DNA of 47,765 nt from Pseudomonadota bacterium (GTDB taxonomy: Bacteria > Pseudomonadota > Alphaproteobacteria > Micropepsales > Micropepsaceae). The position numbers were made by a program, and so were the translations under genes. The notes under the pieces were generated by a model, which saw only the letters and a list, made by a program, of their open reading frames with translations, was not told where the DNA came from and ran no database searches. The first letter of the stretch is position 1; the number at the start of each line of letters is the position of its first letter. Location of the stretch: NCBI GenBank assembly GCA_018242105.1, contig JAFECP010000023.1, forward strand, positions 1 to 47,765, given 5' to 3'. Shown here one piece after another: positions 8,979 through 42,756 of this stretch.

Positions 8979-9455
8979 ATGGAACATCATAAGCTCGACT
9001 CCATCGACCTGCGTATTCTTTCCGAACTTCAGGCCGACGGCCGCATCACCAATGTCGAGCTTTCGCGGCGGGCCAAGATTACCGCTCCGCCATGTCTGCG
9101 CCGCATGCGGGCGCTGGAAAAGGCCGGATACATCAAAGGCTATCATGCCGATCTCGATGGCAAACAGCTCGGCTACGAAGTGATGGCCTTTGTCTATGTC
9201 GGCCTGAACAGCCAGGCCGATGCGGACCTGAAACGTTTCGAGGAGCAGGCGCGGCAATGGCCGCAGGTGCGCGAGTGCTACATGCTCTCGGGCGAAGTGG
9301 ACTTCCTTTTGAAGTGCGTGGCGAAGGATCTGTCGTCCTTCCAGTCCTTCATCACCGACACGCTAACCGCCGCGAAGAATGTGGCGGGCGTGAAATCCTC
9401 GCTCGTCATTCATCCGTCCAAGCGCGAACCGGGCGTGCCGGTGGAAGTGAAGTAG
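8979..9455 (+). CDS. Lrp/AsnC-family transcriptional regulator
   Basis: A 158-residue Lrp/AsnC regulator: helix-turn-helix near residues 8-55 (LDSIDLRILSELQADGRITN, then LSRRAKITAPPCLRRMRALEKAGYI), then an effector-binding RAM domain (residues 65-145) with the typical AFVYVGLN and CYMLSGEVDFLLKCVA. It probably senses an amino acid. The ATG at 8979 is the family-consistent start, but no good Shine-Dalgarno sequence precedes it. A GGGAGG at 8935-8940 stands instead before an out-of-frame ATG at 8944. The gene converges on the MHS transporter gene with directly abutting stop codons. Confidence 0.92.
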   Translation: MEHHKLDSIDLRILSELQADGRITNVELSRRAKITAPPCLRRMRALEKAGYIKGYHADLDGKQLGYEVMAFVYVGLNSQADADLKRFEEQARQWPQVRECYMLSGEVDFLLKCVAKDLSSFQSFITDTLTAAKNVAGVKSSLVIHPSKREPGVPVEVK

Positions 9456-11164: not shown

Positions 11165-11728
11165 TCAGGCGTCTGTGCGCGCGGGCGGCGCAACGATGAA
11201 TTCGCCGCCATTCGCGCGCGCGATTTCCCGCGCCAGCATCACGCTCGGTCTGTCGAAGACGAAAGCGTGCAGGATCATGTTGACGGTCTCGCCGTCGTCG
11301 GACAGCGGCAGGCAGATGCATTCGAACGGTTCATAGCCTTCGCCGATCCAGCCGCTGTCGCCGCGCGCGTGCACAATGGCTTTGTCGCGTGCGCATTTGC
11401 GGAAGATGGCGGCGACTCCTTTGCCGGCCGTTTCGTTATATCCCGTGTAGATTTCCTTAACGGTTTTGCCGGTGACGTCCTTGAAGAAATACTGCGTGAC
11501 GAGCGTGCCCATCAGGCGATAGCGGAAGTCGGCGATGCCGGGAAGCACCTCGACCAGCATCACCCAGCCAAGGTGTTCTTTCAGTTCGGATGCCTTGATG
11601 TCGCCGCGTGACGGCATCGCGCGCGCGCCGCGTTTCCTGTTCCAGAGGCCGAGCAAAAAACCCAGCGTCTCGTTTTCGAGCGCGGCCGGATTGATTTGCG
11701 TTTCGACGCTGTGCAAGCGGTCGTTCAT
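11165..11728 (-). CDS. PAS_5-family PAS-domain protein
   Basis: A 187-residue single-domain protein matching the alphaproteobacterial PAS_5 family (PF07310). It shows LLGLWNRKRGARAMPSRGDI, then LKEHLGWVMLVEVLP, DFRYRLMGTLVTQYF and GKTVKEIYTGY, then a C-terminal strand region with CICLPLSDDGETVNMILHAFVF. There is no attached kinase, cyclase or DNA-binding domain, so its output is unknown. It stands alone between a transporter and a permease gene on the same strand. Confidence 0.85.
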   Translation of the reverse strand: MNDRLHSVETQINPAALENETLGFLLGLWNRKRGARAMPSRGDIKASELKEHLGWVMLVEVLPGIADFRYRLMGTLVTQYFFKDVTGKTVKEIYTGYNETAGKGVAAIFRKCARDKAIVHARGDSGWIGEGYEPFECICLPLSDDGETVNMILHAFVFDRPSVMLAREIARANGGEFIVAPPARTDA

Positions 11729-11845
11729 CGGCGTCCTTCCCCGGCGAAAACCTACGCCGAGAGACTTAATCCCAAGTTAGGACGCAGCCGCACACCCGGT
11801 GTCCGGAACTTGACCCGAATGTCAATTTTGCGAAGCGAATGAAGG

Positions 11846-13264
11846 CTATTTTGCGTTTGCCAGCCGGCTCGCGCGCATGCTGTAGGCAAAATACACAAGC
11901 AATCCAATGCCATTCCACAGCAGGAACCACCACTGCGTGAAGGTGGGCAAGCCATTAAAGAAAAGATAAACGCAGCCGACGATGCAGATCGGGCCGACAA
12001 CCCATGGCAAGGGGGTCCGGAAAGCGCGGGGCCGGTTCGGATCGCGCATGCGCAGCACCAGCATCGATACAGCGACGGCAACGAACGCACAGAGTGTTCC
12101 TGCATTGGCGAGGAGCGCGATTTCATCCAGGCGCAATGTCGCCGCCATCGCCGCAACGACGAGGCCCGTAACGGCCGTCATCAATACCGGCGTTCCGCGC
12201 GTCTTGTGAACGGCGGAAAGCGATTGCGGCAGAAGGCCGTCACGCGCCATCACGAAGAAGATGCGGCTCTGCCCGTACATCAGCACCAGAATGACGGTCG
12301 GCAGCGCGACAATGGCTGCGCCTGCCACAAGCTGCGCCTCGAAGCCGTGATGGAGATTATCCAGAATATAGACCAGCGGCGCGGCGCTCTTGGAGAAATC
12401 CAGAAACGATGTCGCGCCAAGCGCCGTCGCCGCGACGCCGATATAGATCAGCGTGCAGATCGCCATCGAACCGATGATGCCGATTTTGAGATCGCGTCCG
12501 GGATTTTTGGTTTCCTCCGATGCAGTGGAAACCGCGTCGAATCCGTAGAAGGCGAAAAACACCAGCGCCGCTGCCGCCAGCACGCCGCGCTTGACGCCAT
12601 CGGGATCGACATGGGCAGCGAAACCATAGGGCATGAAGGGATGGAAATTGGCGGAGTTGAACGACTGGCCGGCAAGGACCACGAACAGAACCAGCGCCGC
12701 CAGTTTGATGCCAACGAGAACCAGATTCACCGTGGCGCTTTCGCGCGTGCCGACGATAAGCAGGATCGCAACCGCAGCGGAAATAACGATCGCGGGAAGA
12801 TCGACCAGGCCGCCGGACATCGCGCCATGCAGGAGTGGCGTGGGAATGGCCCAGCCGGCGTTCTGGATGAATTCGGCCACATGCGCGGACCAACCCACGG
12901 CGACGGCGGCGGAAGCGACCGTGTATTCGAGAATAAGACTCCAGCCCACGATCCAGGCGAGCAATTCGCCGAGCACCGCATAGCTATAGGTGTAGGCGCT
13001 GCCTGCCGCCGGAATGACCGTGGCCATCTCCGCATAGCAAAGCGCTGCGCAGGCACAGATCACGCCGCACAGAAGAAAGGAGATGATGACCGCCGGTCCG
13101 GCAAGTCCTGCGCTGATGCCGGTGAGGGTGTAGATGCCGGTGCCGACGATGGCGCCCACGCCCATCGCAATCAGGTGCCACCAGCTCAAGGTGGGCCGCA
13201 ACCGGGCGCTGGCCTCGACGGCGGCGAGCGCGTCCACGGATTTGCGGCGATTCCAGAATGACAT
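11846..13264 (-). CDS. APC-superfamily amino acid permease
   Basis: A 472-residue, 12-helix amino acid permease. The first helix carries the APC substrate motif GAIVGTGIYTLTG and the loop after helix 2 has CYAEMATVIPAAGSAYTYSY. FFAFYGFDAVSTASEETKNPGRDLKIGI and GQSRIFFVMARDGLLP follow, as in YfnA/cationic amino acid transporter-like members. The ATG at 13264 was chosen because GAGGGG lies about 8 bp upstream and alignment begins there; the open frame extends 18 codons further. Substrate unknown. Confidence 0.92.
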   Translation of the reverse strand: MSFWNRRKSVDALAAVEASARLRPTLSWWHLIAMGVGAIVGTGIYTLTGISAGLAGPAVIISFLLCGVICACAALCYAEMATVIPAAGSAYTYSYAVLGELLAWIVGWSLILEYTVASAAVAVGWSAHVAEFIQNAGWAIPTPLLHGAMSGGLVDLPAIVISAAVAILLIVGTRESATVNLVLVGIKLAALVLFVVLAGQSFNSANFHPFMPYGFAAHVDPDGVKRGVLAAAALVFFAFYGFDAVSTASEETKNPGRDLKIGIIGSMAICTLIYIGVAATALGATSFLDFSKSAAPLVYILDNLHHGFEAQLVAGAAIVALPTVILVLMYGQSRIFFVMARDGLLPQSLSAVHKTRGTPVLMTAVTGLVVAAMAATLRLDEIALLANAGTLCAFVAVAVSMLVLRMRDPNRPRAFRTPLPWVVGPICIVGCVYLFFNGLPTFTQWWFLLWNGIGLLVYFAYSMRASRLANAK

Positions 13265-28977: not shown

Positions 28978-29125
28978 CTGTAGCTATGGTCGTCGAGATA
29001 GACGCCTTCTGCTTTCCCGCGGCTGCCGTCCCACCGGAAGATCAGCCGCCACTGACTGTTGACTCGGATCGAGTGGAACGCGGCCAGCTTCGCCGCCGTT
29101 TCCGTTTGCGGGAGGCAGCCCGCGC
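28974..29125 (-). pseudogene. higB: Truncated higB toxin remnant
   Basis: About 35 C-terminal residues of a HigB/RelE-type toxin are readable in one frame (FHSIRVNSQWRLIFRWDG, then VYLDDHSYR and TGA at 28974-28976), matching the family pattern SIRVNxQWRIxFRW. A neighbouring frame just upstream reads GLPPAN, the family's PPxN segment, so at least one frameshift separates them. The whole N-terminal half is missing: the stop codon of the glycosyltransferase gene (29126) abuts the fragment. No start codon with a ribosome-binding site serves it. It is a decayed toxin gene, probably inactive. Confidence 0.75.
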
Positions 29126-29848
29126 TCAGATTTCTTTCGGCTCGACCGCGCCTTTGAAGCGATGCTGCAGCCAGCGCACGCCGAACGTATCGAAGAAACC
29201 GACCAGCGCCCGCTGAAGGTTTTTGTATTTGGATGCGCCATGCGCGCGGGCGCGGTGCTCGACATCGGCGAAAAGAACCTTGTAGCCCTCGCGTTGCATC
29301 AGCGCGATCGAGAAGCGGTGCATATTGTCGAAATAGGGGAGGGCGAGGAACGCATCGCGCCGGAAGACTTTCAGGCCGCAGCCCGAATCCGTCGCGCCGT
29401 CATGCAGCATCGCGTTGCGGAACCAGTTGGCGAAGCCCGAAGCATAGCGCTTGTTCGCCTGATCCTTGCGGTGCCGGCGCACGCCGGAGACCATGCCGGC
29501 ATGCTCGCTCCCGGCGGCTTCGCGCAGCATGCGCACCATTTTCGGGATGTCGGCGGGATCGTTCTGTCCGTCGCCGTCCAGGGTTGCAACGATTTCACCC
29601 CGGGCTGCGCGAACGCCGGTGCGCACGGCGCGGCTTTGCCCGATATTGCGGCCGTGGGTGATGACGCGCAGCGACGGGACTTCGGCCTTGAGCGTTTTCA
29701 GAACTTCGGCGGTGTTATCCTGCGAACCGTCGTCCACGAAGATGATCTCGGCATCGGTGCCGACGGCGCGCAGAATCTCCAGCGCCAGCGGCGCGACGTT
29801 CTGCGCCTCGTCCTTGACGGGGACAACAACGGAAAGCGTGACCGTCAT
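29126..29848 (-). CDS. GT2-family polyprenyl-phosphate glycosyltransferase
   Basis: A 240-residue family 2 glycosyltransferase like dolichol-phosphate mannosyltransferase/ArnC catalytic domains. Seen are LSVVVPVKDEAQNV, IIFVDDGSQDNTAEVL, NIGQSRAVRTGVRAARGEIVATLDGDGQNDPADIP (DGDGQ holds the metal-binding Asp) and DSGCGLKVFRRDAF. It lacks the two C-terminal membrane helices of ArnC, so it is the soluble DPM1-like form. It likely loads a sugar onto polyprenyl phosphate on the cytoplasmic face. It is divergent from two GT39 genes that would use such a lipid-linked sugar. Confidence 0.9.
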   Translation of the reverse strand: MTVTLSVVVPVKDEAQNVAPLALEILRAVGTDAEIIFVDDGSQDNTAEVLKTLKAEVPSLRVITHGRNIGQSRAVRTGVRAARGEIVATLDGDGQNDPADIPKMVRMLREAAGSEHAGMVSGVRRHRKDQANKRYASGFANWFRNAMLHDGATDSGCGLKVFRRDAFLALPYFDNMHRFSIALMQREGYKVLFADVEHRARAHGASKYKNLQRALVGFFDTFGVRWLQHRFKGAVEPKEI

Positions 29849-30147
29849 GGCGAGGTTCCGTTCGATCCCTGGCTGCAATAGAGTGGTTGGGGCACAGTCC
29901 GCTTCCCGACGAAACAGGTTGAACGAAAACATGCGGCCGCGCGCGGCGGGCGCCTTATACAGGCTCGTACCGCCGGGAAACAGGCCTGTGCCAATGCGGC
30001 GCACCCCGCCGTTCGGGCGGGGCATCGCCGGTGTCAGGTTCCAGAGCCGGAAGCGGGCTAATATCCACGCCGCGTGGCTCGGCAAGCCAAGTGCCATCCG
30101 TTAACAATCCCCGTCATTCGGCGGGCTACTTTCAAGAGGCGTTCCAC

Positions 30148-31863
30148 ATGAGCGAGGCGGTGGCGGAGAAGAGCGAAGGCTCCCCGATTCTGGCTTTGCT
30201 GGCGCGCTGGCCCGCGGCGGTGCTGTTCCTGCTTTGCGTGATCGCGTGGGTGCCGGGCTTCTTCACCTTGCCGCCGCTCGACCGCGACGAGAGCCGCTTC
30301 GCGCAGGCCTCCAAGCAGATGATCGAGACGGGCAACTATGTAGATATCCGCTACAGCGTCGGTCCGCGCTACAAGAAGCCTGTCGGTATCTACTGGATGC
30401 AGGCCGCGTCCACACTGGCGTTCAGCAAGCCGCCCTACAACCAGATCTGGACCTATCGCCTTCCATCCTTGATCGGCGGGTTCATCGCCGTGTTGCTGGC
30501 GTATTGGTGCGCACGCGCGCTCGCGCCGCCCGAAACGGCGCTCATCGCCGCCGCACTCATAGGATTCACGGTGGGGCTGACGGCGGAAACACGCATCGCG
30601 AAAACCGACGCGGTGTTGCTAGCCACGGTGCTGGGCTCGCAGGCGTTGCTCTTGCGAGCTTATCTCGCCGCGCGATTGGAGAAGACGCCGCCTTCGCTAT
30701 GGGTGGCGCTGGGCGGATGGGCCGCCTTCGCCGCCGGTATCCTCATCAAGGGGCCGATCATTGTTGCGGTGCTGGCCGTCACCATCGTCGCGATCTCGCT
30801 GTGGGATCGCGACTGGACATGGATCAAGACGATCCATTGGGGCTGGGGCCTGCTCCTCACCGCGGTCATTGTGCTGCCATGGGGCCTCGCCATCGCATTC
30901 GCCACACATGGCGAGTTCTACGAACAGGCGCTCGGCCATGATTTCGCGGCGAAGATCCTCGGCGGCCAGGAAACCCACGGCGCGCCGCCCGGCTACTATC
31001 TGCTGCTCGCAAGCGTAACCTTGTGGCCGGCGACGTTGTTCGCGTTGCCCGGTGTCGGCAGCGGCGTGGTCCTGCGGCGCGATCCGGCCATCCGCTATCT
31101 GCTCGCATGGGCGGGCGCGGCGTGGCTGCTGTTCGAGATCGTGCCCACCAAGCTGCCGCATTACATCCTTCCGGCCTATCCGGCCGTCGCATTTCTGGGC
31201 GCGCTGTGGGCGGTGCGCGCGAAGCCGGCCGAAGAGCCCACATGGGAGAAGGTGCTGCGCTGGCTGGCGGCGCTGCAATTTGCGCTCGGCGTTGCGGCGT
31301 TCACCATCGTGCCGATCCTTGCGCCGAAATATTTCGGCGAGGGCGTCGATCCCTGGCTTGTGGCGGGCGCCTTGATCGGCGGCGCGGTGGGGCTATCCGC
31401 AGTGGCGCTGTTCGTGGCCCACAGGACGATGCTCGCCTCGCTCTTCGCGGTCGTGGCGGCGGTCATCTTTTATCCGCTGATCGGGTGGGGCGTGGCGCCG
31501 AAGGTCGATCAGATATGGATGAGTCCGAAGGCCGCGGCCCTGGTCGCGAAATACAAAGAGCCGGACGACCCGCCGGTGGTGCTCGGCGGTTATGTCGAGC
31601 CCAGCCTCGTCTTCCTGCTCGGCACCGACACGCAGATCCAGAACGGCACGCGCGCGGCGAATATCGCGGCGCAGCAGGGCGGGCTGGCGTTGATCGAAGA
31701 TCAGGAGAAAGCCAAATTCCTCACCCGTCTGGGCGATCTCGATGCGCAAGCCAGGCCGCTGGACGGCGTATCCGGTTTCGATTATTCGCGCGGCCGGCAT
31801 GAGCACATCACCGTCTATCGCGTGACCCCCACCCAGCAGATCACGGAGCCGCCGCCGGAATGA
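30148..31863 (+). CDS. GT39/ArnT-like membrane glycosyltransferase
   Basis: A 571-residue polytopic membrane enzyme with about 12 helices. The first periplasmic loop has PPLDRDESRFAQASKQM, whose acidic pair is the catalytic signature of ArnT/PMT-type (GT-C) transferases, followed by GPRYKKPVGIYWMQ. PTKLPHYILPAYPA lies in a later loop. It transfers a sugar from polyprenyl phosphate to a lipid or protein on the periplasmic side. AAGAGG 8 bp upstream supports the ATG at 30148. Its end overlaps the next gene's start as ATGA (31860-31863). Confidence 0.9.
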   Translation: MSEAVAEKSEGSPILALLARWPAAVLFLLCVIAWVPGFFTLPPLDRDESRFAQASKQMIETGNYVDIRYSVGPRYKKPVGIYWMQAASTLAFSKPPYNQIWTYRLPSLIGGFIAVLLAYWCARALAPPETALIAAALIGFTVGLTAETRIAKTDAVLLATVLGSQALLLRAYLAARLEKTPPSLWVALGGWAAFAAGILIKGPIIVAVLAVTIVAISLWDRDWTWIKTIHWGWGLLLTAVIVLPWGLAIAFATHGEFYEQALGHDFAAKILGGQETHGAPPGYYLLLASVTLWPATLFALPGVGSGVVLRRDPAIRYLLAWAGAAWLLFEIVPTKLPHYILPAYPAVAFLGALWAVRAKPAEEPTWEKVLRWLAALQFALGVAAFTIVPILAPKYFGEGVDPWLVAGALIGGAVGLSAVALFVAHRTMLASLFAVVAAVIFYPLIGWGVAPKVDQIWMSPKAAALVAKYKEPDDPPVVLGGYVEPSLVFLLGTDTQIQNGTRAANIAAQQGGLALIEDQEKAKFLTRLGDLDAQARPLDGVSGFDYSRGRHEHITVYRVTPTQQITEPPPE

Positions 31864-33326
31864 GCGCCGAAGACCGCCGTTATTTCCACATCGCGCTCGC
31901 CATTATCGCCGCCATAACGGCTATCCGCGTGGCGGTGCTGGTCCTGTCGCCGCTCGACCTCTATCCGGACGAGGCGCAATACTGGTGGTGGTCCCAGAAT
32001 CCGGACTGGGGCTATTTCTCCAAGCCGCCGATGATCGGCTGGGTCATCTGGCTGACGACCGCGATATTCGGCCAGGCCGAATGGGCCATCCGCATCGGAT
32101 CGCCTTTGCTCCATGCGATGACCGCGCTGTTGCTGTTCGGGATCGCGCGGCGCTGCTTCGACGCGCGCACCGCCATGTTCGCGGCGCTGGCCTATCTGAC
32201 GACGCCGGGCGCGTCCTATTCTTCCGGTCTGATCTCGACCGATGTGCCGCTGCTGTTTTTTTGGGCAATCGCACTCTATGCCTTCCTCCGCGCGATGGAC
32301 GACCCGCGTTGGCGCTGGCCGATCCTGGCCGGCATCGCCTTCGGCCTCGGCCTCGAAGCCAAATACGCGATGTTCTACGTCCTGCCGTGTGCGGGCTTCG
32401 CGGCGTTGTTTTCCCCCAAAGCCCGCAAGGTCGTCCTTGGCGGGCGCGGCGCCGCCATACTGGCGATAGGCCTGCTGCTGCTGCTGCCCAACGTGTTGTG
32501 GAACGCCGCGCATCACTTCCCCACCGTGGCGCATACCGAACACAATGCCGATTGGGCCGGCGCCCGTTACAGCCTCAGCGAGACCGCTTCGTTCATTGGC
32601 GGACAATTCGGCGTCTTCGGGCCGATCCTGATGGTGGGTCTGCTGCTGATGTTCTGGAAACTGGCGCGCGGTCCCGAGCGTTCACAGGGCAGCCTCGTTC
32701 TGGCGGCATTCTGCGCACCGCCCCTGATCCTCATCATCGTCCAGTCGTTCATCTCCGAAGCCAATGCCAACTGGGCCGCAACGGCCTATGTGGCCGCCAC
32801 CCCGCTTGCCGTCGCGGCATTGATAGGCCTGTGGGATTCCCGCCTTCTGTGGGCCTCCTTTGTGCTCGACGGCCTGGTGATGGCGGTGCTGTGGCTCATC
32901 CTTCTGTCGCCGTCTTTCGCCAATGGCATCGGCCTGGGCAATGCGTTCAAGCGCATGGAGGGCTGGCGCGAACTGGGGACCGCTGTGGCCGATGAAGCAC
33001 AGCAGGGCCACTACGCGCTCATCTCCGCCGCCAACCGGAGCATCATGGCCGAGTTGCTCTACTACGCGGCGCCGCGCACTGCCTTTGTGCGCATGTGGGA
33101 TAAGGATCTGCACGACGACGATCATTTCCAGATGACGCTGCGGCTGACGGTGCCCGCGCACCGGGTGTTGATGGTGGTATCGCCGCAGGAAGCGCCGGCC
33201 GTGCTTGGCACCTTCGATTCGAATACGCTTGCGGACACGGTCACGGTCCCGATCGGCGGGCGGCATATCCGCGTCACACAGCTCTACGATGCGCGCGACT
33301 ATCGTGGTCCACAGACTTCGCAATGA
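31860..33326 (+). CDS. Second GT39-type membrane glycosyltransferase
   Basis: A 488-residue GT-C enzyme with 8-10 helices. The signature loop is LYPDEAQYWWWSQNPDWGYFSKPP, a variant found in GT39 members close to PMT_2 domains. GLISTDVPLLFFW and GLGLEAKYAMFYVLPC follow. The soluble C-terminal part (about 360-488) is larger than a plain tail. It overlaps the previous gene by four bases, so the two are translated together. Acceptors of the two enzymes probably differ, as their sequences do. Confidence 0.88.
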   Translation: MSAEDRRYFHIALAIIAAITAIRVAVLVLSPLDLYPDEAQYWWWSQNPDWGYFSKPPMIGWVIWLTTAIFGQAEWAIRIGSPLLHAMTALLLFGIARRCFDARTAMFAALAYLTTPGASYSSGLISTDVPLLFFWAIALYAFLRAMDDPRWRWPILAGIAFGLGLEAKYAMFYVLPCAGFAALFSPKARKVVLGGRGAAILAIGLLLLLPNVLWNAAHHFPTVAHTEHNADWAGARYSLSETASFIGGQFGVFGPILMVGLLLMFWKLARGPERSQGSLVLAAFCAPPLILIIVQSFISEANANWAATAYVAATPLAVAALIGLWDSRLLWASFVLDGLVMAVLWLILLSPSFANGIGLGNAFKRMEGWRELGTAVADEAQQGHYALISAANRSIMAELLYYAAPRTAFVRMWDKDLHDDDHFQMTLRLTVPAHRVLMVVSPQEAPAVLGTFDSNTLADTVTVPIGGRHIRVTQLYDARDYRGPQTSQ

Positions 33327-33596
33327 TGCGTGCGAGTCAGTCCTGAATCACTTTTCGGAAATGGCAAAAGCGAATCATCGCGCATGAGTCGCCCGCATGC
33401 GCAAAGTTTCGCGAGTTATCGCGAAGCGGTTCGTTGTTTCGTCTTGCGGCGCGCAACATTCGCGGAAATTTAGAATGCACCACAGGTGCGCATATCGCGC
33501 CGCCTTTACTTGAATAAACTTCAATGGCGCATCCGTTTTACTTGCACGTTTTACTGGACGAATGGGCTGCGAATTCCAGTATTCGCAGACCTTCAC
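33327..33596. other. Gene-free spacer before the kamA promoter
   Basis: About 270 bp without a convincing gene. It is locally A+T-richer than its surroundings. An inverted repeat TTCGCG-AGTTAT-CGCGAA lies at 33408-33425. A 73-codon open frame on the minus strand (33375-33596) has no ribosome-binding site or recognisable product. Confidence 0.6.
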
Positions 33597-33625
33597 TTGA
33601 CAAGAGGATTAACGCGTTAAATATC
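33597..33625 (+). promoter_or_regulatory. Promoter with palindromic operator ahead of kamA
   Basis: Consensus -35 TTGACA at 33597-33602, with a probable -10 TAAATAT near 33618-33624. The spacer contains TTAACGCGTTAA (33609-33620), a perfect 12-bp palindrome overlapping the -10, which is a natural place for a repressor to block RNA polymerase. The leader to the kamA ATG is about 65 nt. Confidence 0.62.
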
Positions 33626-33696
33626 GCTCTGTATAGCTTCACCGGTTGAGATCGCTGGGATCTTCGAGGTGTTCGCAGGAGCGTTACGAGACCTCA

Positions 33697-35028
33697 ATGA
33701 GTCTCCAACTGTTGCGGGGGCAAACCGCCAAGTCCCCGTTGCGAGCCGGCCAAGAGAAGCCAGCCGCCAGTACCGTCCTCCAGAGCCAGAATGCGAAGCA
33801 GTTGACCCGGATCGGCAAGGCGAAAGCCAAGCCGCGCCTGAGTTTCCCCGTGGGCGAAGAGACCCGCGACTTCTATCGCCGCATCTATCCGGGGACGACC
33901 ACGGCCGAATGGAATGACTGGCACTGGCAGTTCCAGGCCCGCATCCGTAGCGCCGCTGACCTGGAGAAGGTCTTTATATTGTCGGAGGAGGAGCGCGCCG
34001 CCGCGACCCGCCACAAGGGGCCGCTGCCGGTCGGCATCACCCCTTATTACGCGAGCCTGATGGGCCGCGACGACCCGAACGAACCGCTGCGCCGCACCCA
34101 TGTCATCTCCACCAAGGAAGACATCGTGCTTCCGGGCGAGTCGATCGACCCGCTGGCCGAGGACCACGACACCGCCGCGCCCGGCATCGTGCATCGCTAC
34201 CCGGATCGCGTCCTGTTCCTGACCACCGGCACCTGCTCGACCTATTGCCGCTACTGCACCCGCGCCCGCGCGGTGGGCAATCCGGGCGGCGAGTACCAGT
34301 TCTCCCCCAAGCAGTGGGAGCAGGCGCTGGCCTATCTGGAGGAGCACACCGAGGTCCGCGATGTGCTGATGTCCGGCGGCGATCCGTTCTCCATCGCCGA
34401 CGAGAAGCTCGATTACCTGCTCACCCGCCTGCGCAAGATGAAGCACATCGAGTTCCTGCGCTTCGGCACCAAGATCCCGATGGTGCTGCCCCAGCGCATC
34501 ACCAAGGACTTCGTGAAGATGCTCAAGAAGCATCATCCGCTGTTCCTCTCCATCCATGTCACCCACCCGCGCGAATTCACGCCGGAGACGACCGAATCCC
34601 TGAATCGCCTGGCCGATGCGGGCATCCCGCTGGGCTCGCAGACGGTGCTGATGAAGGGGATCAACGACGACATCTCCATCATGAAGCCGCTGATGCACGG
34701 CCTGCTGAAGCGCCGGGTGAAGCCTTATTACCTCTACCAGCCCGATCCGGTGAAAGGCTCCGGCCATTTCCGCACCAATGTGGAGAAGGGCCTGGAGATC
34801 ATCGAAGGCCTGCGCGGCTTCACCACCGGTTATGCCACGCCGATCTTCGCCGTGGATGCGCCCGGCGGCGGCGGCAAGATCCAGCTTGCGCCCGACTGCA
34901 TCGTCGGCCGCGACGGAGACAATCTTCTGCTGCGCAATTTCGAGGGTGTGGTTTACGCCTATCCCGATCCTGGCGGCACCTTGGGCGCCGACAAGCGCAA
35001 GCCGAAGCACAAACTCGCGGCCGAATGA
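33697..35028 (+). CDS. kamA: Lysine 2,3-aminomutase (radical SAM, PLP)
   Basis: A 443-residue radical-SAM aminomutase that converts L-lysine to L-beta-lysine. The 4Fe-4S motif is Cys180-x3-Cys184-x2-Cys187 in CSTYCRYCTR. Arg189 matches the carboxylate-binding Arg134 of clostridial LAM. Lys394 in DAPGGGGK matches the PLP-lysine 337. Asp350 (QPDPVKGSGHFR) and Asp387 (VDAPGGGG) match Asp293 and Asp330, which hold the lysine side-chain amine; the 37- and 7-residue spacings are identical. Glutamate mutases replace both aspartates. The zinc-binding C-terminal cysteines of the clostridial enzyme are missing. The start at 33697 is a choice; an in-frame upstream start is possible. First gene of a four-gene operon. 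Confidence 0.9.
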   Translation: MSLQLLRGQTAKSPLRAGQEKPAASTVLQSQNAKQLTRIGKAKAKPRLSFPVGEETRDFYRRIYPGTTTAEWNDWHWQFQARIRSAADLEKVFILSEEERAAATRHKGPLPVGITPYYASLMGRDDPNEPLRRTHVISTKEDIVLPGESIDPLAEDHDTAAPGIVHRYPDRVLFLTTGTCSTYCRYCTRARAVGNPGGEYQFSPKQWEQALAYLEEHTEVRDVLMSGGDPFSIADEKLDYLLTRLRKMKHIEFLRFGTKIPMVLPQRITKDFVKMLKKHHPLFLSIHVTHPREFTPETTESLNRLADAGIPLGSQTVLMKGINDDISIMKPLMHGLLKRRVKPYYLYQPDPVKGSGHFRTNVEKGLEIIEGLRGFTTGYATPIFAVDAPGGGGKIQLAPDCIVGRDGDNLLLRNFEGVVYAYPDPGGTLGADKRKPKHKLAAE

Positions 35029-36038
35029 TGCGTATCGGCATCTGCTACGATCTGAAGTCCGATTACCTCGCGCAAGGCTATAGCGAAGAGGACGCGGCCG
35101 AGTTCGATGCGGAAGTCACCATTGACGCGATCTTTGATGCGCTGGCCTCTCTCGGCTGGGAGCCGGTGAAGATCGGCGGCATCAAGAAGCTGGCGGCGGC
35201 GCTGGTCGCGGGCGAGCGCTGGGACGCGGTGTTCAATTTCTGCGAAGGCATGTACGGGCTGGCGCGCGAGGCGCAGGTGCCCACGCTGCTGGACGCCTAC
35301 CGGATTCCTTATGTCTTCTCCGACGCGCTCACCATGGCGCTGACGCTCGACAAGGCGATGACCAAGCATGTCGTGCGCAGCCAGGGCGTGCCGACCGCCG
35401 GGTTCGCGCTGATCGAGAAGCCTTCGGATATCGCCAGGATCGATCTGCCGTTCCCCCTGTTCCTGAAACCGGTGGCGGAAGGCTCCGGCAAGGGTGTGAA
35501 TGCGAAGTCCAAGGTGAGCGATAAAAAAGCGCTCGCGGCCACCGCGAAAGAATTGCTGCGCAAATTCCATCAGCCGGTCTTGGTGGAGACGTTCCTGTCC
35601 GGCCGCGAATTCACCGTCGGCATCACCGGCACGGGCGAAGACGCCCGGGTGCTGGGTGTAACCGAGATCGTTCCGCTCGCCGGATGGGTTGGCGACGGTT
35701 ATGGCCTGGAGAACAAAAGCGAAGGCTGGGAAGAGCGCGTCACCATCAAAAGCGTGACGAATCTCCCCGAGGCCAAGCGCGCCGCCGCCGTCGCGCTGGC
35801 GGCATGGCGCGCGTTGCGCTGCCGCGATGGCGGGCGCATCGACATTCGTTGCGACGGCAATGGCAAGCCGCACTTCATCGAAGTGAATCCGATCGCGGGC
35901 ATGCGGCCGGATCATTCGGATCTGTGTTTGATCGCGAACTACGAAGGCCTGACGTATTCGGAGCTGATAAACCGAATCATGTCGTCGTTTCTGAAACGTC
36001 ATCCGGCTCTTGCGCCGGGACGGCGAGTCGCGGCTTAA
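35025..36038 (+). CDS. Ddl-like ATP-grasp ligase A
   Basis: A 337-residue ATP-grasp enzyme related to D-alanine-D-alanine ligase. The N-terminal domain has VFNFCEGMYGLAREAQVPTL in place of Ddl's HGxxGEDG loop. ATP-binding parts are LFLKPVAEGSGKGVN and ETFLSGREFTVGITG, and the metal site is HFIEVNPIAGMRPDHSD. It forms an amide bond through an acyl phosphate; the changed loop argues against D-Ala-D-Ala as product. Its ATG overlaps the kamA stop (ATGA at 35025-35028), so it is translationally coupled. I infer that beta-lysine or a derivative is a substrate. Confidence 0.88.
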   Translation: MMRIGICYDLKSDYLAQGYSEEDAAEFDAEVTIDAIFDALASLGWEPVKIGGIKKLAAALVAGERWDAVFNFCEGMYGLAREAQVPTLLDAYRIPYVFSDALTMALTLDKAMTKHVVRSQGVPTAGFALIEKPSDIARIDLPFPLFLKPVAEGSGKGVNAKSKVSDKKALAATAKELLRKFHQPVLVETFLSGREFTVGITGTGEDARVLGVTEIVPLAGWVGDGYGLENKSEGWEERVTIKSVTNLPEAKRAAAVALAAWRALRCRDGGRIDIRCDGNGKPHFIEVNPIAGMRPDHSDLCLIANYEGLTYSELINRIMSSFLKRHPALAPGRRVAA

Positions 36039-36045
36039 TAAATTC

Positions 36046-37014
36046 ATGCGTGTTCTTGTGCTGCATCTCGACGCCGATTCGCAGGCGCCGCCGGAGATTG
36101 AAGATTCGATTCTCACGGCGAAGCAAATCGGCGAGACGCTCACCAAGCGGGGCCACTTCGTTCAGTTGGCGCCGTTCGAAGCGAATTATGAAAAATTCGC
36201 CAAGGAAGTGTCGGAGGCAAAGCCCGACATTGTCTTCAACATGGTCGAGCATGCGCTGGGCCAGGACCAGCTTTCCGCTGTCGCGCCGGCTTATCTGGAA
36301 CAGATGGGGCTGCGTTATACCGGCGGCGGCCCTGCCGCGATCGTCGCCACCTGCGACAAGCCCTTCGCCAAGGAGATTATGCGCGCCGCGGGATTGCCGA
36401 CGCCCGATTGGGCCGTCGGCCCGCATTGGCATGGTCTGAAGGCGGGCCAGAAATACATCGTGAAATCTTCCACGGAGGACGCATCGCTCGGTCTTGACGA
36501 CGGCGCGGTGGTGATGGGCGCGGAAGTCCGCGCGCGGGCGGAGAAATGCTTCAAGGAATATGGCGGCCGCTGGTTCGCGGAAGCCTATGTCGAGGGCCGG
36601 GAGTTCAACATCTCGGTCATTGAAGAGGGAAAGAACCTGCGCGTTCTGCCGCTGGCGGAAATCCAGTTCATCGACTGGAATCCGGCCAAGCCGCGCATCG
36701 TCGGCTATGCCTGCAAATGGGACGACAGCAGCGAAGAGAGCAAGCAGTCGGCCCGTGTGTTCGGTTTTGAGGATGAAGACCCCAGGCTTGCCGCCGAACT
36801 GGCGCGCCTGACGCGCGAGGCCTTCACGCTGTTCGGCAATCGCGGCTTCGCGCGCATCGACTTTCGCGTGGACGAGCAGGGCAATCCGTTGATCCTCGAG
36901 GTCAATCCCAACCCGTCGCTGGATGTGGACGCGGGCTTCGCGGCGGCCTGCGCGGAAGCCGGTTACGACTACGGCAACGCGCTCGAGAAAATCATCGCCG
37001 CAGCTCTGCAGTGA
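36046..37014 (+). CDS. Ddl-like ATP-grasp ligase B
   Basis: A 322-residue ATP-grasp enzyme, clearly distinct from its neighbour. It has VFNMVEHALGQDQLSAVAPAYLEQMGLRYTGGG, the ATP-lid segment IVKSSTEDASLGLDDGAVV, AEAYVEGREFNISVIEEG and the metal site ILEVNPNPSLDVDAGFA. It starts 7 bp after ligase A, and its end overlaps the next gene's GTG. Two dissimilar peptide-type ligases in a row suggest two successive condensations with different partners. Confidence 0.87.
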   Translation: MRVLVLHLDADSQAPPEIEDSILTAKQIGETLTKRGHFVQLAPFEANYEKFAKEVSEAKPDIVFNMVEHALGQDQLSAVAPAYLEQMGLRYTGGGPAAIVATCDKPFAKEIMRAAGLPTPDWAVGPHWHGLKAGQKYIVKSSTEDASLGLDDGAVVMGAEVRARAEKCFKEYGGRWFAEAYVEGREFNISVIEEGKNLRVLPLAEIQFIDWNPAKPRIVGYACKWDDSSEESKQSARVFGFEDEDPRLAAELARLTREAFTLFGNRGFARIDFRVDEQGNPLILEVNPNPSLDVDAGFAAACAEAGYDYGNALEKIIAAALQ

Positions 37015-37616
37015 TCGCGCTTTCACGGGAATATGCATCCGTCTTCGGCAGGCCCGTCATCCGCGCCGTCGATCCTGCGATCTTCAACTATCGCTATTTC
37101 ACCCATTGCATGGCCTGCGGTTTCTGCAAGGACCAGTGCTGCTCCTATGGCGTCGATATCGACGTGGAGAATATTGCGCGCATCGAAGCGCTGGGCCCGG
37201 ATTTCGATGCCCATGTCGGCGTGCCGCGCGCCAGATGGTTTACGCGGCAAACCTGGAAGGACGAAGAGTTTCCCGGCGGTGCGCAAGCACGCACGCGGGT
37301 GAAGGACGGCGCGTGCGTGTTCCTCGACAGGAAACAACGCGGCTGCAAAATCCACAGCTACTGCATCGGGAAGGGCATCGACTATCACCAGCTCAAGCCG
37401 CTGGTGAGCATCCTGTTTCCGCTGACCTTCGAAGGCGGCGTCCTCGTCGCGTCCGGTGAACTGGAAGACAAATCGCTCGTCTGCGCCGATCAGGGGCCGA
37501 ACGCCTATGACGGCCTGCGCGCCGAGCTGGCCTATTATTTCGGCGAGGATTTTGTGGCGGAGCTGGACGCCATCCGGGCTGAAGGCCTGAAGACGGGCAT
37601 TGCCGTAAGCGTTTGA
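37011..37616 (+). CDS. Cysteine-cluster (YkgJ/DUF3109-like) metalloprotein
   Basis: A 201-residue protein with nine cysteines. The first group is Cys33, 36, 39, 43 and 44 in HCMACGFCKDQCCSYG, and the second is Cys102, 112, 118 and 158 (ACVFLD, GCKIHSYC, LVCAD). This resembles the CxxxCC zinc- or iron-sulfur-binding clusters of YkgJ/DUF3109-type proteins. The start is GTG at 37011, overlapping the ligase B stop (GTGA), so it is part of the kamA operon. A role as an electron donor, oxygenase-like enzyme or maturation factor is open. Confidence 0.72.
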   Translation: MIALSREYASVFGRPVIRAVDPAIFNYRYFTHCMACGFCKDQCCSYGVDIDVENIARIEALGPDFDAHVGVPRARWFTRQTWKDEEFPGGAQARTRVKDGACVFLDRKQRGCKIHSYCIGKGIDYHQLKPLVSILFPLTFEGGVLVASGELEDKSLVCADQGPNAYDGLRAELAYYFGEDFVAELDAIRAEGLKTGIAVSV

Positions 37617-37684
37617 TGTCAAAAAGGATTATGTGAATTTCCGCCCAAATCTGGAGTGAGATAGATTTTTCCTCATAATTTCAC

Positions 37685-37706
37685 TTGACATGTTCCTATT
37701 ATGTTC
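37685..37706 (+). promoter_or_regulatory. LexA-type box on a consensus -35 element
   Basis: TTGACA (37685-37690) is followed by GTTC-CTATTAT-GTTC (37692-37706), the GTTC-N7-GTTC direct repeat recognised by alphaproteobacterial LexA. No strong -10 is evident; TAGTTT at 37707-37712 with a 16-bp spacer is the best. No protein gene begins downstream within 500 bp. Confidence 0.6.
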
Positions 37707-37718
37707 TAGTTTGGGGAT

Positions 37719-38107
37719 GTCTCACCCATGAGGGGGCGGTCCGGACCGTCCTGATCGCCGGGTGGGATCGGCGTCCGCCGAGAAAGCTCGTAACGAGGGC
37801 TTTGAGAAGCGGAGGCCGCGATCCGATACCGCTGCCGCCACGCGCCCGACAGGGAACGCCCGGAAGGCAGCCGCAGGAGAATGTCCTGCAGCGCGAAATC
37901 CTCGCCAAGACCACGGGCCCGGCGAAAGCCGGATAATCCGCGATGGCAAGCGGACCTGTCGAGCGATGTGAGAGTAACGAAGTGGCCATCGGACCCGCGG
38001 ACAGAAAACGCCGGGTGCGGGATGCCGAACAAGGCTTCCCAACAATCCATCGCTCTTCGAAAGAAGAGCATCTCTCTCGTGCACACGCCTTTCCGGCGTC
38101 CCGCACC
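37719..38107 (+). ncRNA. Candidate structured noncoding RNA
   Basis: About 390 nt with no credible coding frame and many good hairpins. Seen are the palindrome CGGTCCGGACCG (37737-37748), CGGCG-TC-CGCCG, an AAAGC-CTCG / CGAG-GCTTT type stem around TAA near 37783-37803, CCGGC-GAAA-GCCGG (37919-37932), CGATGGC / GCCATCG (37941-37947 with 37985-37991), and a 14-bp outer stem (38014-38027 with 38094-38107, one mismatch). The outer stem encloses GCTCTTC-GAAA-GAAGAGC (38052-38069). Two perfect GNRA tetraloop stems are unlikely by chance. From memory, similar blocks occur in Bradyrhizobium-type genomes; I cannot verify this. It could be a stand-alone RNA, a leader of the dehydratase gene or a mobile-element remnant. 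Confidence 0.5.
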
Positions 38108-38246
38108 GCCCTCAGTATTTCAGAGCAGGCGTATGAATTTTCCAAGAAGTGCCAAACGGCAAAGTGCGGAGCTTTGTCTTTCCTCCACCAATTTGCAGAC
38201 CGGCTCCGCTCTGGCGCTGGCGCGTTGCTTGTGGCGAAGTGCCCTC

Positions 38247-39239
38247 ATGTCCATTCGCCTCCCCGAATTCTCCGATATCGAAGACGCCGCCAAGCGGATC
38301 GCGCCCTGGGCTGTGGTAACGCCTCTGCTGGAAAGCCCGGCGCTCAACGCCCGCATGGGCACGCGGGTCCTGTTGAAGGCAGAACCGTTTCAACGCACCG
38401 GCTCCTTCAAATTCCGCGGCGCCTGCAATCGCATCCTGCTGATCCCGGCAGCCGAACGGAAACGCGGCGTGATCGCGTTCTCCTCCGGCAATCATGCGCA
38501 GGGTGTGGCCGCCGCTGCCGGCCTGTTCGATCTTCCGGCGACCATCGTCATGCCTGCGGATGCACCGCGCACGAAGATCGAGAATACACGCGGCTATGGT
38601 GCGAAGGTCGTCACCTACGATCGCAAACGTGAGGATCGCGAAGCCATCGCGCGCAAGATTCAGGAAGAGACGGGCGCGACCCTCATCAAACCTTTCGACG
38701 ACCCCTTCATTGTGGCGGGGCAGGGCACGGCGGGTTTGGAAATGGCGGCCCAGGCGCGCGCCGCCGGCGCAGACATTGGCCGGGTCTTCATTCCGGCGAG
38801 CGGCGGCGGACTGGCCTCCGGAACGGCGCTCGCATTTGGTCACATCAGCCCGGCCACGAAGGTGATCTCCGTCGAGCCGGAAGCTTATGAGAGCATGGCG
38901 CTCTCTCTCGCAAAGGGCGCGCGCACGATGGCACCCGCTGACAAGCCGTCAATGGCCGACGCGCTCCAGTCGCCCTTCTCGGGAGAAGTGCCCTTCGCAG
39001 TTGCGAAACAGTATTTGTCCGGCGGCGTAACGGTGACGGACGACGCGCTGGCGCGGGCGGTCAGCTATGCCGTCCGTGTGCTGAAAATCGTTGTGGAACC
39101 GGGCGGCGCCGCGGGATTGGCGGCGCTTTTGTCATCGAACCGTCGCGATAAGGCCGAGACGATGGGCGTTGTTTTGTCGGGTGGCAATGCGGATCCGGAG
39201 ACACTTGCCGATTGCTGCGCCCGCTTTCCGCAACCCTGA
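38247..39239 (+). CDS. PLP-dependent threonine/serine dehydratase
   Basis: A 330-residue fold-type II PLP enzyme. The PLP lysine lies in RTGSFKFRGACNRI, the phosphate-binding asparagine loop is FSSGNHAQGVAAAAG, and the glycine loop is PASGGGLASGTA. EPGGAAGLAALLS lies near the C-terminus. There is no ACT regulatory domain, so it is the short catabolic type: serine/threonine dehydratase, possibly serine racemase or a related hydroxyamino-acid lyase. It is preceded by the structured RNA candidate. The Shine-Dalgarno sequence is weak, and the start follows family N-termini. Confidence 0.9.
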   Translation: MSIRLPEFSDIEDAAKRIAPWAVVTPLLESPALNARMGTRVLLKAEPFQRTGSFKFRGACNRILLIPAAERKRGVIAFSSGNHAQGVAAAAGLFDLPATIVMPADAPRTKIENTRGYGAKVVTYDRKREDREAIARKIQEETGATLIKPFDDPFIVAGQGTAGLEMAAQARAAGADIGRVFIPASGGGLASGTALAFGHISPATKVISVEPEAYESMALSLAKGARTMAPADKPSMADALQSPFSGEVPFAVAKQYLSGGVTVTDDALARAVSYAVRVLKIVVEPGGAAGLAALLSSNRRDKAETMGVVLSGGNADPETLADCCARFPQP

Positions 39240-39340
39240 GCGCTTCCGCGCTTACCATGCCGATATCCTGCCTTTGCAAACTGTGCCATTTTGGCTAGCA
39301 TCCAAACAAATAATAAGCGTTTTTGGGCGTTGGGGGTTTC

Positions 39341-39955
39341 ATGGGGTCGGCGAACCGGGGCGGCACGCGCCGTTATGCGCGCATTTTTGCCAGTCTCGCA
39401 GTGGCTTTGGTGCTTGTGGGGTGTGGCGGGCTAGGCCTGCTGCCCTATCGGACGGACGTCCAGAACACGAAGTTCCGGTCCTACAAGCAAGTCTCTATCG
39501 CCTACGATCACATTATGCCGGGCTTCACGCGGGTCTCCGACCTGAACGATATCGGCTTCGACACCACGTCCTCCCCGAATGTGGAGGCGCTTTCCTATCT
39601 CGGCATTGTCGAGCGCTTCATGCCGCGCGACTCTGTGAAGTTCGACAAGCTCGATCCGTCGGTGCGTTCGTGCATTGATGCGCGCGATCATTGCACCGCG
39701 CTCGTTTTCCGTCCTGAACGCCTGCATCGGGAGCACGCCGGAAACTGGTTCCTCGACGTGCTCGGCTTTAAGCGCACGGCAGTGAACTACGGCTGGTCGG
39801 CGGAAGTCGTGCTTCTCATTCAGGATGGCCGGGTCGCCTATAAGGCGATGTCGGGCCGCCCGAACATTCAGGACGACAGGGTCTCGCCGATGGTTTCGTT
39901 CGAGGACATGGGCGCCAAGGCCATGCGCACCGTGGCGCGCGCCGCCAGCCTCTGA
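39341..39955 (+). CDS. Hypothetical outer-membrane or periplasmic lipoprotein
   Basis: A 204-residue lipoprotein: a basic N-terminus, a hydrophobic run and lipobox LVGC with Cys28. The mature part is soluble with two cysteines (SCIDARDHC). I do not recognise the family. GGGGG precedes the ATG at 39341. It stands alone between the dehydratase gene and a bidirectional terminator. Confidence 0.8.
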   Translation: MGSANRGGTRRYARIFASLAVALVLVGCGGLGLLPYRTDVQNTKFRSYKQVSIAYDHIMPGFTRVSDLNDIGFDTTSSPNVEALSYLGIVERFMPRDSVKFDKLDPSVRSCIDARDHCTALVFRPERLHREHAGNWFLDVLGFKRTAVNYGWSAEVVLLIQDGRVAYKAMSGRPNIQDDRVSPMVSFEDMGAKAMRTVARAASL

Positions 39956-39967
39956 CCGTCAAAAAAG

Positions 39968-39996
39968 AAAACGGCCCTCTCGCGAAGGCCGTTTTT
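39968..39996. terminator. Bidirectional intrinsic terminator between lipoprotein gene and infC
   Basis: AAAACGGCC / GGCCGTTTT stem (39968-39976 with 39987-39995), 10-nt loop, with a T5 run on the plus strand and a preceding A-run (39959-39970) giving a U-run on the minus strand. It ends infC transcription about 20 bp after its stop. Confidence 0.9.
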
Positions 39997-40016
39997 GTCA
40001 GTTTGTTGCGCTGGGA

Positions 40017-40562
40017 TCAGCGCGGCGCCAGAACCATCATCATCTGGCGGCCTTCCATCTTCGGATATTGCTCCATCTTCGCGTAGGTCTCGGTGTCCTT
40101 CGTGATGCGGGTCAGCAATTCCATGCCCAGATGCTGGTGCGCCATTTCGCGTCCGCGGAAGCGCAGGGTGACTTTCACCTTGTCGCCTTCGCCGAAGAAG
40201 CGCTGCATGGCCTTCATCTTGGTTTCGTAATCGTGGTCGTCGATGGTCGGGCGCATCTTGATCTCCTTGATCTCGATGACCTTCTGCTTCTTGCGCGCCT
40301 CGGCGGCCTTTTTTTGCTGCTCGTATTTGTATTTGCCGTAGTCCATCAGCTTGACCACGGGTGGTTTCGCGTCCGGCGAAACCTCAACGAGATCGTATCC
40401 GCGCTCTTCCGCGATGGCGCGGGCTTCGTCGATACCGATCTCTCCGAATTTTTCGCCCTCGTCACCGATCAGAAGGATGGTGCGGGAATGGATGTCTTCG
40501 TTGACGCGCGGGCCATCTTTGGGGGCGGGCGCTTGCTGTGAACTAAAACGTCTGGCGACTAT
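40017..40562 (-). CDS. infC: Translation initiation factor IF-3 (AUA start)
   Basis: A 181-residue IF-3, which binds the 30S subunit and checks the start codon. The N-domain is [24 protein letters not shown] and [40 protein letters not shown]; the C-domain has [41 protein letters not shown]. The start is read as ATA at 40560-40562, with AGGAG 6 bp upstream. Non-AUG starts (AUU, AUA, AUC) on infC are the basis of its known autoregulation. No other ATG fits the protein's N-terminus. rpmI and rplT, its common partners, do not follow. Confidence 0.95.
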
Positions 40563-40702
40563 GACTCTCTCCTGTTGTAAGCCGTGCGCAATCACGCCTC
40601 GCAAGGTCTCCACCGGGGCCTCGCGAAACATGTTTCGGTCAGTGGCGCAGCGGATTAGCCTTTCGTGATGGCGCACCGGCGCGGGTTTAACCCAAGCCGG
40701 CA

Positions 40703-40739
40703 CTTGCCGTTCCGGCGGGATTCCGCCGGAGTCGGCAAG
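40703..40739 (-). other. Strong hairpin in the thrS-infC spacer
   Basis: Two nested perfect stems, CTTGCCG / CGGCAAG (40703-40709 with 40733-40739) and CCGGCGG / CCGCCGG (40712-40718 with 40723-40729), with loop GATT. No T-run follows on the minus strand, so it is not a plain terminator. It lies in the infC leader if thrS and infC are co-transcribed. A second palindrome, GGGTT-T-AACCC, lies at 40683-40693. Confidence 0.6.
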
Positions 40740-40770
40740 AGAATAGGTAGCGCCGCTCGTTTCGCAAGGC

Positions 40771-42756
40771 CTATTCGGCCACATCCACGCGGGATTCCGC
40801 CTCACCCTTGATGCGGGAAATGAAGGATTCCAGCGGCATAGCCCCCAGATCCTTGCCCGAGCGCAGGCGCACCGCGACCTTGCCTTCGGCGGCCTCGCGC
40901 TCGCCGACCACCAGCATGTAGGGGATCTTCTGCAACTGGGCGTCGCGGATCTTCTTCTGCATGCGCTCGGACGAGGTGTCGATGTCCACCCGCAGGCCCG
41001 CAGTGCCGTTTACGACCGGGGTCTGGAACAGGGTGTCCACCACCTTCTGTCCGTAGCCGCTCACCTTGTCGGAGATAGGGATCACGCGCGCCTGTATAGG
41101 TGCAAGCCATGTGGGAAACGCCCCGGCATAGTGCTCGATCAGGAAGGCCGTGAAGCGTTCGTGACTGCCAAGCGGCGCACGGTGGATGACATAGAGTGGA
41201 TGCTCCGCGCCGTCTTCGCCGATGTATTTGAGGTTGAAGGTCTGCGTTGCCAGGAAGTCGAGCTGGTTGGTCGAGATCGCGTATTCGGTGCCGATGACGC
41301 TCTTGACCATGAAGTCGACCTTCGGGCCATAGAACGCGGCTTCGCCTGTCGCCTCGATATAACGATAGCCGGATTCGTCCATCGCCTGCTTGATGATCTT
41401 CATCGCGTCGAGCCATTTCTGGGGCTCGTCGACATATTTATCGAGCTTGTCCAGATCGGGCAGCGAGAACCGCATGTAGTAGTCTCTGATGTTGAAGAGA
41501 TCGTAATATCGCGCGTGCAGGTGCATCACGCGAATGAACTCCTCTTTCGCCTGATCGTAGCGGCAATAGATGTGAGCATCGTTCTGGCAGAAGCCGCGCA
41601 CGCGCATCAGGCCGGAAAGGCCGCCTGATGCCTCATAGCGATAGTCCTGCGCGTATTCGGCGATGCGGATCGGCAGCTCGCGATAGGAATGCCGTGTCGC
41701 ACCATAGATCAGATGGTGATGCGGGCAATTCATCGGGCGCAGGTAGAAGTTCTCGCCTTCGATTTCGAGCGGCGAGTACATGTCATCCTTGTAGTAGGGC
41801 AGGTGCCGCGAACGGTAATAGAGAGCTTCCTTGGTGATGTGGGGCGTCGCCACACGGCGATATCCATCTTTCCGTTCTTCCTGCAGCGCGAGGAATTCCA
41901 GCTCTTGCCGGATGACCATGCCGTTCGGCATCCACAGCGGCAACCCCGCGCCCACATCCGGAGAGAAGGTGAAAAGTTCCAGCTCGCGGCCGATCTTGCG
42001 GTGATCGCGCTTCTCCTGCTCTTCGATCTTGAGCAGGTAAGCGTCTAATTCCTTCTGATCGCGCCACGCGGTGCCATAGATGCGCTGAAGCTGCGCGTTC
42101 TTGGCATCGCCGCGCCAATAAGCGCCCGCGATCTTGGTCAGCTTGAACGCATCGGGAATCTGCGCGGTGGTTGCGAAATGTGGGCCGCGGCAGAGGTCAT
42201 GCCAGTCGCCATGCCAGTAGATCGAAACGTCTTCGCCGGCCGGAATGCTTTCGATCAGCTCGGCCTTGTAACTTTCTCCGATGCCCTTGAAGTGCGCGAC
42301 GGCTTTGTCGCGCGGCCATACTTCGCGGCGGGTCGGCAGACCGGCTTTTATGATCTTGCGCATCTGCTCTTCGATCTTCGGCAGATCGTCGGGCGTGAAC
42401 GGGGTGTCGCGCGCGAAGTCGTAATAGAAGCCGTCTTCGATCGCCGGGCCGATGGTCACCTGGGTACCCGGGTAAAGCGCTTGCACCGCCATGGCGAGGA
42501 CATGCGCCATGTCGTGCCGGATCAGCTCCAGCGACTCCGGATCCTTCTTGGTGATGATGCGAAGCTTGGCGTCTTCCTCGATGGGGCGAAACAGGTCCCA
42601 CTCCTTGCCATTCACTTCGGCAATGAGGGCTGCTTTCGCAAGGCCGGGGCCGATCGATGCCGCGATCTCGCCCGGGGTGGTCCCGCGCGTCACCGTCAGC
42701 GCCTTACCATCCGGTAAGGTGACGGTCACATTAGACGCGGAAGCGGGCGCAGACAC
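40771..42756 (-). CDS. thrS: Threonyl-tRNA synthetase (GTG start)
   Basis: A 661-residue class II synthetase. The N-terminal TGS domain is [24 protein letters not shown]. The editing domain has [12 protein letters not shown] (HxxxH) and DLCRGPH. The catalytic core has [15 protein letters not shown], the zinc-site cysteine in [30 protein letters not shown] and [13 protein letters not shown]. The C-terminal anticodon-binding domain contains [19 protein letters not shown]. The start is GTG at 42754-42756 with GAGGAG 6 bp upstream; the open frame continues 126 codons further without sense. Confidence 0.97.

Follow-up and report, generated by a model that had tools for sequence, protein, structure and literature searches.

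A putative beta-lysine peptide operon built on kamA and two Ddl-like ligase genes, shared by a Rhizomicrobium relative and distant bacteria

What does a gene for a lysine 2,3-aminomutase-like enzyme do directly in front of two genes for relatives of D-alanine–D-alanine ligase (Ddl)? The question is raised by a locus on contig JAFECP010000023.1 (contig C15 of genome G000; assembly GCA_018242105.1), from a Micropepsaceae bacterium with a genome of 3.2 Mb whose nearest named relatives are Rhizomicrobium. The stretch analysed, hereafter the window, comprises 47,765 nucleotides. Four genes follow one another in it:

33697..35028, plus strand: kamA, coding for a lysine 2,3-aminomutase-like radical S-adenosylmethionine (SAM) protein of 443 amino acids (TIGR00238 above its cut-off, alignment with PDB 2a5h, conserved residues)
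35028..36038, plus strand: lig1, coding for a Ddl-like ATP-grasp ligase of 336 amino acids (PF07478); an alternative ATG lies at 35025
36046..37014, plus strand: lig2, coding for a second Ddl-like ATP-grasp ligase of 322 amino acids (PF07478)
37011..37616, plus strand: gene for a cysteine-cluster protein of 201 amino acids with a GTG start (PF03692, narrowly), in the slot that a GNAT gene occupies in relatives

The conserved unit is kamA, lig1 and lig2, and the set found in the window is one local form of it. The reading that we favour is a small-molecule operon in which KamA would supply beta-lysine, the ligases would incorporate it into a short peptide, and the amine would be capped. Gene order, co-occurrence, conserved residues and the pattern of replacement in the fourth slot point to it, and we put its chance at about even. 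A preliminary description of this DNA had already proposed that beta-lysine is made and then ligated. The four genes that it listed are real, with all frames open on the plus strand and family matches for KamA, both ligases and the fourth protein. Its proposal fits the lysine-type residues of KamA and the joint occurrence of kamA and the ligases in distant bacteria.

Conservation of the kamA-lig1-lig2 set

A scan of genome contigs with a lig1 alignment yielded 558 confirmed stretches, of which the best 80 by match were collected, a selection whose mix of organisms is no census. Although these loci were fetched with lig1 alone, kamA adjoins lig1 in 71 of the 80. The nine other genomes carry kamA elsewhere, at 44–70% identity, so that kamA accompanies lig1 in 80/80. 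The lig2 gene follows lig1 in 76/80 loci, and in L094 the sequence ends at that point. Such adjacency in a lig1-only collection rules out a chance gene order. The hosts span several phyla and are mostly metagenome bins; among the best 80 of 558, their titles include Bacteroidales, Desulfobacterales, Syntrophus, Planctomycetaceae, Acidobacteria, Ignavibacteria, Spirochaetes, WOR-3 bacterium and Gammaproteobacteria. Across the 59 loci with all three genes, the pairwise protein distances among KamA, lig1 and lig2 correlate (r 0.64, 0.71 and 0.68).

In an even sample of 289 genomes across the Alphaproteobacteria, lig1 was found in 19, with scores of at least 385 bits, the next match reaching 130. 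All 19 carry kamA, which is adjacent to lig1 in 18 and on a separate contig in G225. The operon kamA also occurs in a cultured species, Rhizomicrobium electricum (L057).

KamA and its probable substrate

With 335.6 bits to TIGR00238 (cut-off 199.2), KamA belongs to the KamA family of radical SAM proteins. It matches the Radical_SAM and LAM_C domains, the latter aligned over 58 of 127 positions. None of the equivalog models for lysine, glutamate or arginine aminomutase is matched above its cut-off, and against the EpmB model TIGR03821 KamA reaches 237 bits, with a cut-off of 369.3. At an E-value limit of 0.001, its sole solved relative is PDB 2a5h, a lysine 2,3-aminomutase (E 1.2e-115, 363 residues aligned). 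The radical SAM cysteines of the cluster, the pyridoxal 5'-phosphate (PLP) lysine and the two substrate-binding aspartates align with those of 2a5h, as expected of AblA. Across 116 sequences, conservation is 98% or higher at C180, C184, C187, R167, D350, D387 and K394; this count, like those over 122 lig1 and 116 lig2 sequences below, includes some genomes twice. Read onto the 2a5h alignment, D350 and D387 presumably bind the distal amino group of lysine, and K394 would anchor the PLP. The substrate of KamA likely bears a distal amine and is most simply lysine. The window enzyme nevertheless differs from AblA/KamA lysine 2,3-aminomutases by its shorter C-terminus and by its score below the AblA equivalog cut-off. 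The partner of AblA is AblB, whereas the window kamA is linked to ligase genes.

Four loci (L037, L041, L044 and L045) harbour kamA genes at 61–65% identity, with no ligase gene in the stretch and no lig1 in the genome.

The two ligases are not ordinary Ddl enzymes

Both ligases match PF07478 (94.1 bits for lig1 and 67.2 for lig2, cut-off 24). They share the ATP-grasp core with Ddl, lig2 has the overall Ddl fold, and the nearest solved relatives of both are Ddl enzymes. These relatives lend some support to another view of the locus, that the ligases produce a dipeptide of the D-alanine type or a variant of the cell wall, the KamA product being only a regulator or a by-product. The same holds for the GNAT found in related loci, whose nearest solved relative, 2r7h, is a putative D-alanine N-acetyltransferase. 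However, both ligases score far under the PRK01372 (Ddl) cut-off of 243 bits (150.4 for lig1, 110.9 for lig2). Ddl enzymes carry the signature HGxxGE(D/N)G, which was found in 0/122 lig1 and 0/116 lig2 sequences. A second Ddl signature, around E-x-N, is absent in its strict form from the same sequences (0/122 and 0/116), and its loose form occurs in 3/122 and 19/116. The HGxxGE(D/N)G signature and the cut-offs together rule out lig1 and lig2 as ordinary Ddl, and the genome encodes its own Ddl elsewhere, with the signature and 344.4 bits to PRK01372. The constant presence of kamA with lig1, in all 80 genomes, also speaks against a D-alanine-type product, which we consider very improbable.

The lig1 protein retains a Ddl serine, which we take to be the residue that holds the carboxylate of the acceptor, and the lig2 pocket differs. 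Because of this difference, two distinct ligations are likely. If the favoured pathway is correct, enzymes annotated in databases as D-alanine–D-alanine ligase serve distantly related bacteria in making a beta-amino-acid peptide; such annotations occur among the 120 relatives listed out of 7519 proteins.

Acetyltransferase and deacetylase neighbours

Genetic environments were compared in the 54 loci with lig1 identity below 60%, hereafter the outside loci. A GNAT gene lies near lig1 in 44/54 of them, and a GNAT–deacetylase fusion in 16/54. Several of the ten loci devoid of GNAT end within 1.5 kb. These neighbours recall ablAB, the pathway to N-epsilon-acetyl-beta-lysine, whose logic is KamA plus GNAT according to PMC3543383 and PMC9337991. 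As in ablAB, an aminomutase gene is joined by an acetyltransferase gene in many relatives of the window operon. The operon might then yield N-acetyl-beta-lysine or a close osmolyte, with the ligases performing a side reaction. Nevertheless, the constant partners of kamA are the ligases, not GNAT; the core includes two of them, and the window operon has no GNAT gene at all. The operon GNAT is also missing from 46/52 operon-bearing genomes of the window's genus. By score it is not AblB: the protein of L080 reaches 18.8 bits against TIGR03827 (cut-off 205.1), and that of L052 was not among the listed matches. We thus regard an ablAB-like product as improbable.

For the GNAT of L082 (9078-9596), the only solved relative found is 2r7h (E 1.9e-22). 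If the operon handles beta-lysine, the name given to that structure may merit re-examination.

Among solved structures, the deacetylase half of the fusions is nearest to 6phr, an acetylpolyamine amidohydrolase (E 7.5e-71). Unlike that enzyme, the neighbour deacetylase is fused to GNAT domains. In three loci, GNAT, deacetylase and GNAT form a single protein beside kamA, lig1 and lig2 (L032 2273-4570, L035 10682-12952 and L115 2339-4636); in L035 and L115, the leading GNAT domain was assigned by similarity to L082. No fusion of this kind is encoded in the window genome, where the top match is a lone deacetylase-like frame on contig C78. In the planctomycete locus L101, two lig2-like genes (9100-10104 and 11229-12251) flank a GNAT gene.

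The cysteine-cluster protein

The preliminary description counted nine cysteines in the fourth protein. We find the same number; in an alignment of 40 sequences, eight of the nine never vary. The protein matches PF03692, the CxxCxxCC family, only narrowly (24.1 bits, cut-off 23), and relatives also carry PF11307 (among 120 of 535 listed proteins). Its predicted structure is good, yet no solved fold matches it. A FliB-like flagellin lysine N-methylase was considered and rejected, with 18.8 bits to NF038110 against a cut-off of 85.

The four genes had been described as one unit. The neighbourhoods uphold this for kamA, lig1 and lig2, which travel together; the fourth gene alone fails to stay with them, as it is present in 36 of the 69 genomes of the window's genus and, in its window type, in 0/54 outside loci. 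These counts rule it out as a core member. The same 69 genomes harbour the operon GNAT in six cases, and in none do both genes occur. Some GNAT match was detected in 56/69 genomes, and only the six with at least 54% identity were counted. On the operon tree, the state of the slot (GNAT or cysteine gene) changes six times; this tree comprises 57 rows, of which two are filled to only 40%, and G017 and G019 were excluded from the slot count. From this pattern, the cysteine protein probably replaced GNAT in the window's genus, with another tailoring or accessory function.

A second link between cysteine-cluster proteins and lig1 appears in planctomycete-type loci, where another such protein is encoded immediately 5' of lig1 (L112 7451-8026, L123 7401-7877, L127 2-238 and L129 864-1373).

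EF-P and the EpmA-linked aminomutase

The preliminary description reported EF-P or its modification genes as absent, which does not hold for the genome. The window genome encodes two EF-P proteins, each with a PGKG loop, and EpmA adjoins one of them, so that EpmA and lysine-type EF-P are both present. The EpmA gene, on contig C74, is split in two by a run of N and scores 268.3 bits, just below the cut-off of 286.9. Only the aminomutase gene found near EpmA in relatives is missing from this genome.

That gene is present in all 23 genus loci sampled for it (L188-L210). The copy examined (L137 6157-7134) scores 481.5 bits to TIGR03822 (cut-off 396.25) and 247.1 bits to the EpmB model TIGR03821, below the cut-off of 369.3. 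Although TIGR03822 is named only lysine-2,3-aminomutase-like, these scores and the position near EpmA suggest that it may describe the EpmB of these bacteria.

The EpmA-linked aminomutase is absent from 20/52 operon-bearing and 0/17 operon-less genomes of the genus, according to lists compiled by hand that include the fragments G011, G332, G337 and G347. The one-contig genome G028 is among those that have no such gene. In the 20 genomes, EpmA is over its cut-off in 17 and split by the N run in the window genome; the poor assemblies G005 and G340 yielded no EpmA. All 17 loci sampled among those devoid of the linked gene retain EpmA, 16 of them with EF-P alongside, and no EpmA alignment column separates the genomes with and without that gene (42 of the 69 genus genomes were used for this and for the EpmA tree). 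Such genomes raise the question of the source of beta-lysine for EF-P.

One answer would be that the window KamA mainly feeds EpmA and EF-P, having taken over from the lost aminomutase, and that the ligases belong to a separate pathway. The presence of EpmA and two EF-P proteins in the window genome, the contrast between 20/52 and 0/17, the retention of EpmA and the five to six state changes on the trees are all in line with it. Like the EpmA/EpmB system of EF-P beta-lysylation, the window genome combines a KamA-family enzyme with EpmA; unlike in that system, its kamA is linked to neither epmA nor efp, which are on contig C74. Fisher tests on the genus counts, which ignore relatedness, gave 0.0015 and 0.0004. 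However, operon absence is a single change on the EpmA tree, with only one independent pair, and the value of 0.0015 is therefore not independent evidence. Furthermore, 32/52 operon-bearing genomes have kept the EpmA-linked paralogue, and the ligases are left unexplained. EF-P as the main outlet of the operon KamA is hence decidedly improbable. That this KamA also feeds EF-P, as an added role, is possible, if on the doubtful side. A shared pool of beta-lysine would tie the operon metabolite to translation.

Proposed pathway

In the favoured small-molecule pathway, KamA would convert L-lysine to beta-lysine, as its residues suggest. The family and gene order of lig1 and lig2 suggest that they would then couple beta-lysine, via an acyl phosphate, to at least one amino acid, giving a short peptide. 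In most lineages, a free amine of the product would be acetylated by GNAT; some lineages could take the acetyl group off again with a fusion of GNAT and an acetylpolyamine-amidohydrolase-like domain. In the window's genus, where the cysteine-cluster protein occupies the GNAT slot, this protein probably has a tailoring or accessory role of another kind. A compatible solute would be a reasonable guess at the nature of the product.

Several observations weigh against this pathway. KamA scores 437.9 bits against TIGR03820 (AblA), short of the equivalog cut-off of 525.4. The kamA gene is not next to lig1 in L084, L089, L101 and L123, and in the L127 genome the kamA match is weaker (44% over 100-430). 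No lig2 gene follows lig1 in L107, L123 and L129, within the 4-8 kb of sequence available. Since four alphaproteobacteria (G060, G129, G192 and G289) carry kamA at 60% identity or more and no lig1, kamA also lives without the ligases. Finally, both GNAT and the cysteine gene are missing from 10/52 operon-bearing genomes of the genus, and capping is therefore not general.

A wider scheme would join these elements into one cross-phylum pathway: beta-lysine, a short beta-peptide, a reversible GNAT/deacetylase cap that a metal-cluster protein replaces in Rhizomicrobium, and the same pool modifying EF-P in hosts devoid of an EpmA-linked aminomutase. Taken whole, we judge this scheme unlikely.

In kind, the operon appears to resemble small-peptide or osmolyte operons. 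As in the asnO-ngg operon for the osmolyte N-acetylglutaminylglutamine amide (PMC8070244), an acetyltransferase and ATP-dependent peptide bond formation are combined in a small operon. That operon nevertheless acts on glutamine, has no kamA and encodes different proteins. No asnO-type amidotransferase was found among the recurrent neighbours whose proteins were examined, no dedicated search being made. The open-licence literature, to which our search was confined, yielded no description of kamA together with these ligases.

Gene junctions, candidate regulatory elements and flanks

For kamA, the ATG at 33697 (MSL...) is better placed as a predicted start than the TTG at 33646; a start at MSL... 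is common to most of the 25 listed kamA relatives. The kamA stop codon (35026-35028) overlaps the lig1 ATG at 35025 or 35028, and lig2 and the cysteine gene overlap in GTGA. Translational coupling, earlier suggested for the locus, is thus plausible at two of the three junctions; lig1 and lig2 are separated by seven bases. One further feature precedes the genes:

33597..33624, plus strand: promoter-like element, TTGACA (33597-33602) and AAATAT (33619-33624), proposed on conservation alone

Its CTTGAC and AAATATC are kept across an alignment of 26 upstream regions, and it was not among the matches of a simple consensus scan. An Rfam scan of positions 29000-42000 of the window gave no family at gathering score, which rules out a known RNA regulator at the operon. 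A GAGAC 5' and a GTCTC 3' of the kamA start codon (33685-33710) could pair with the start codon in the loop; similar arrangements occur in some relatives and are absent from others. The operon is flanked upstream by two PMT-type genes and downstream by a PALP-family gene.

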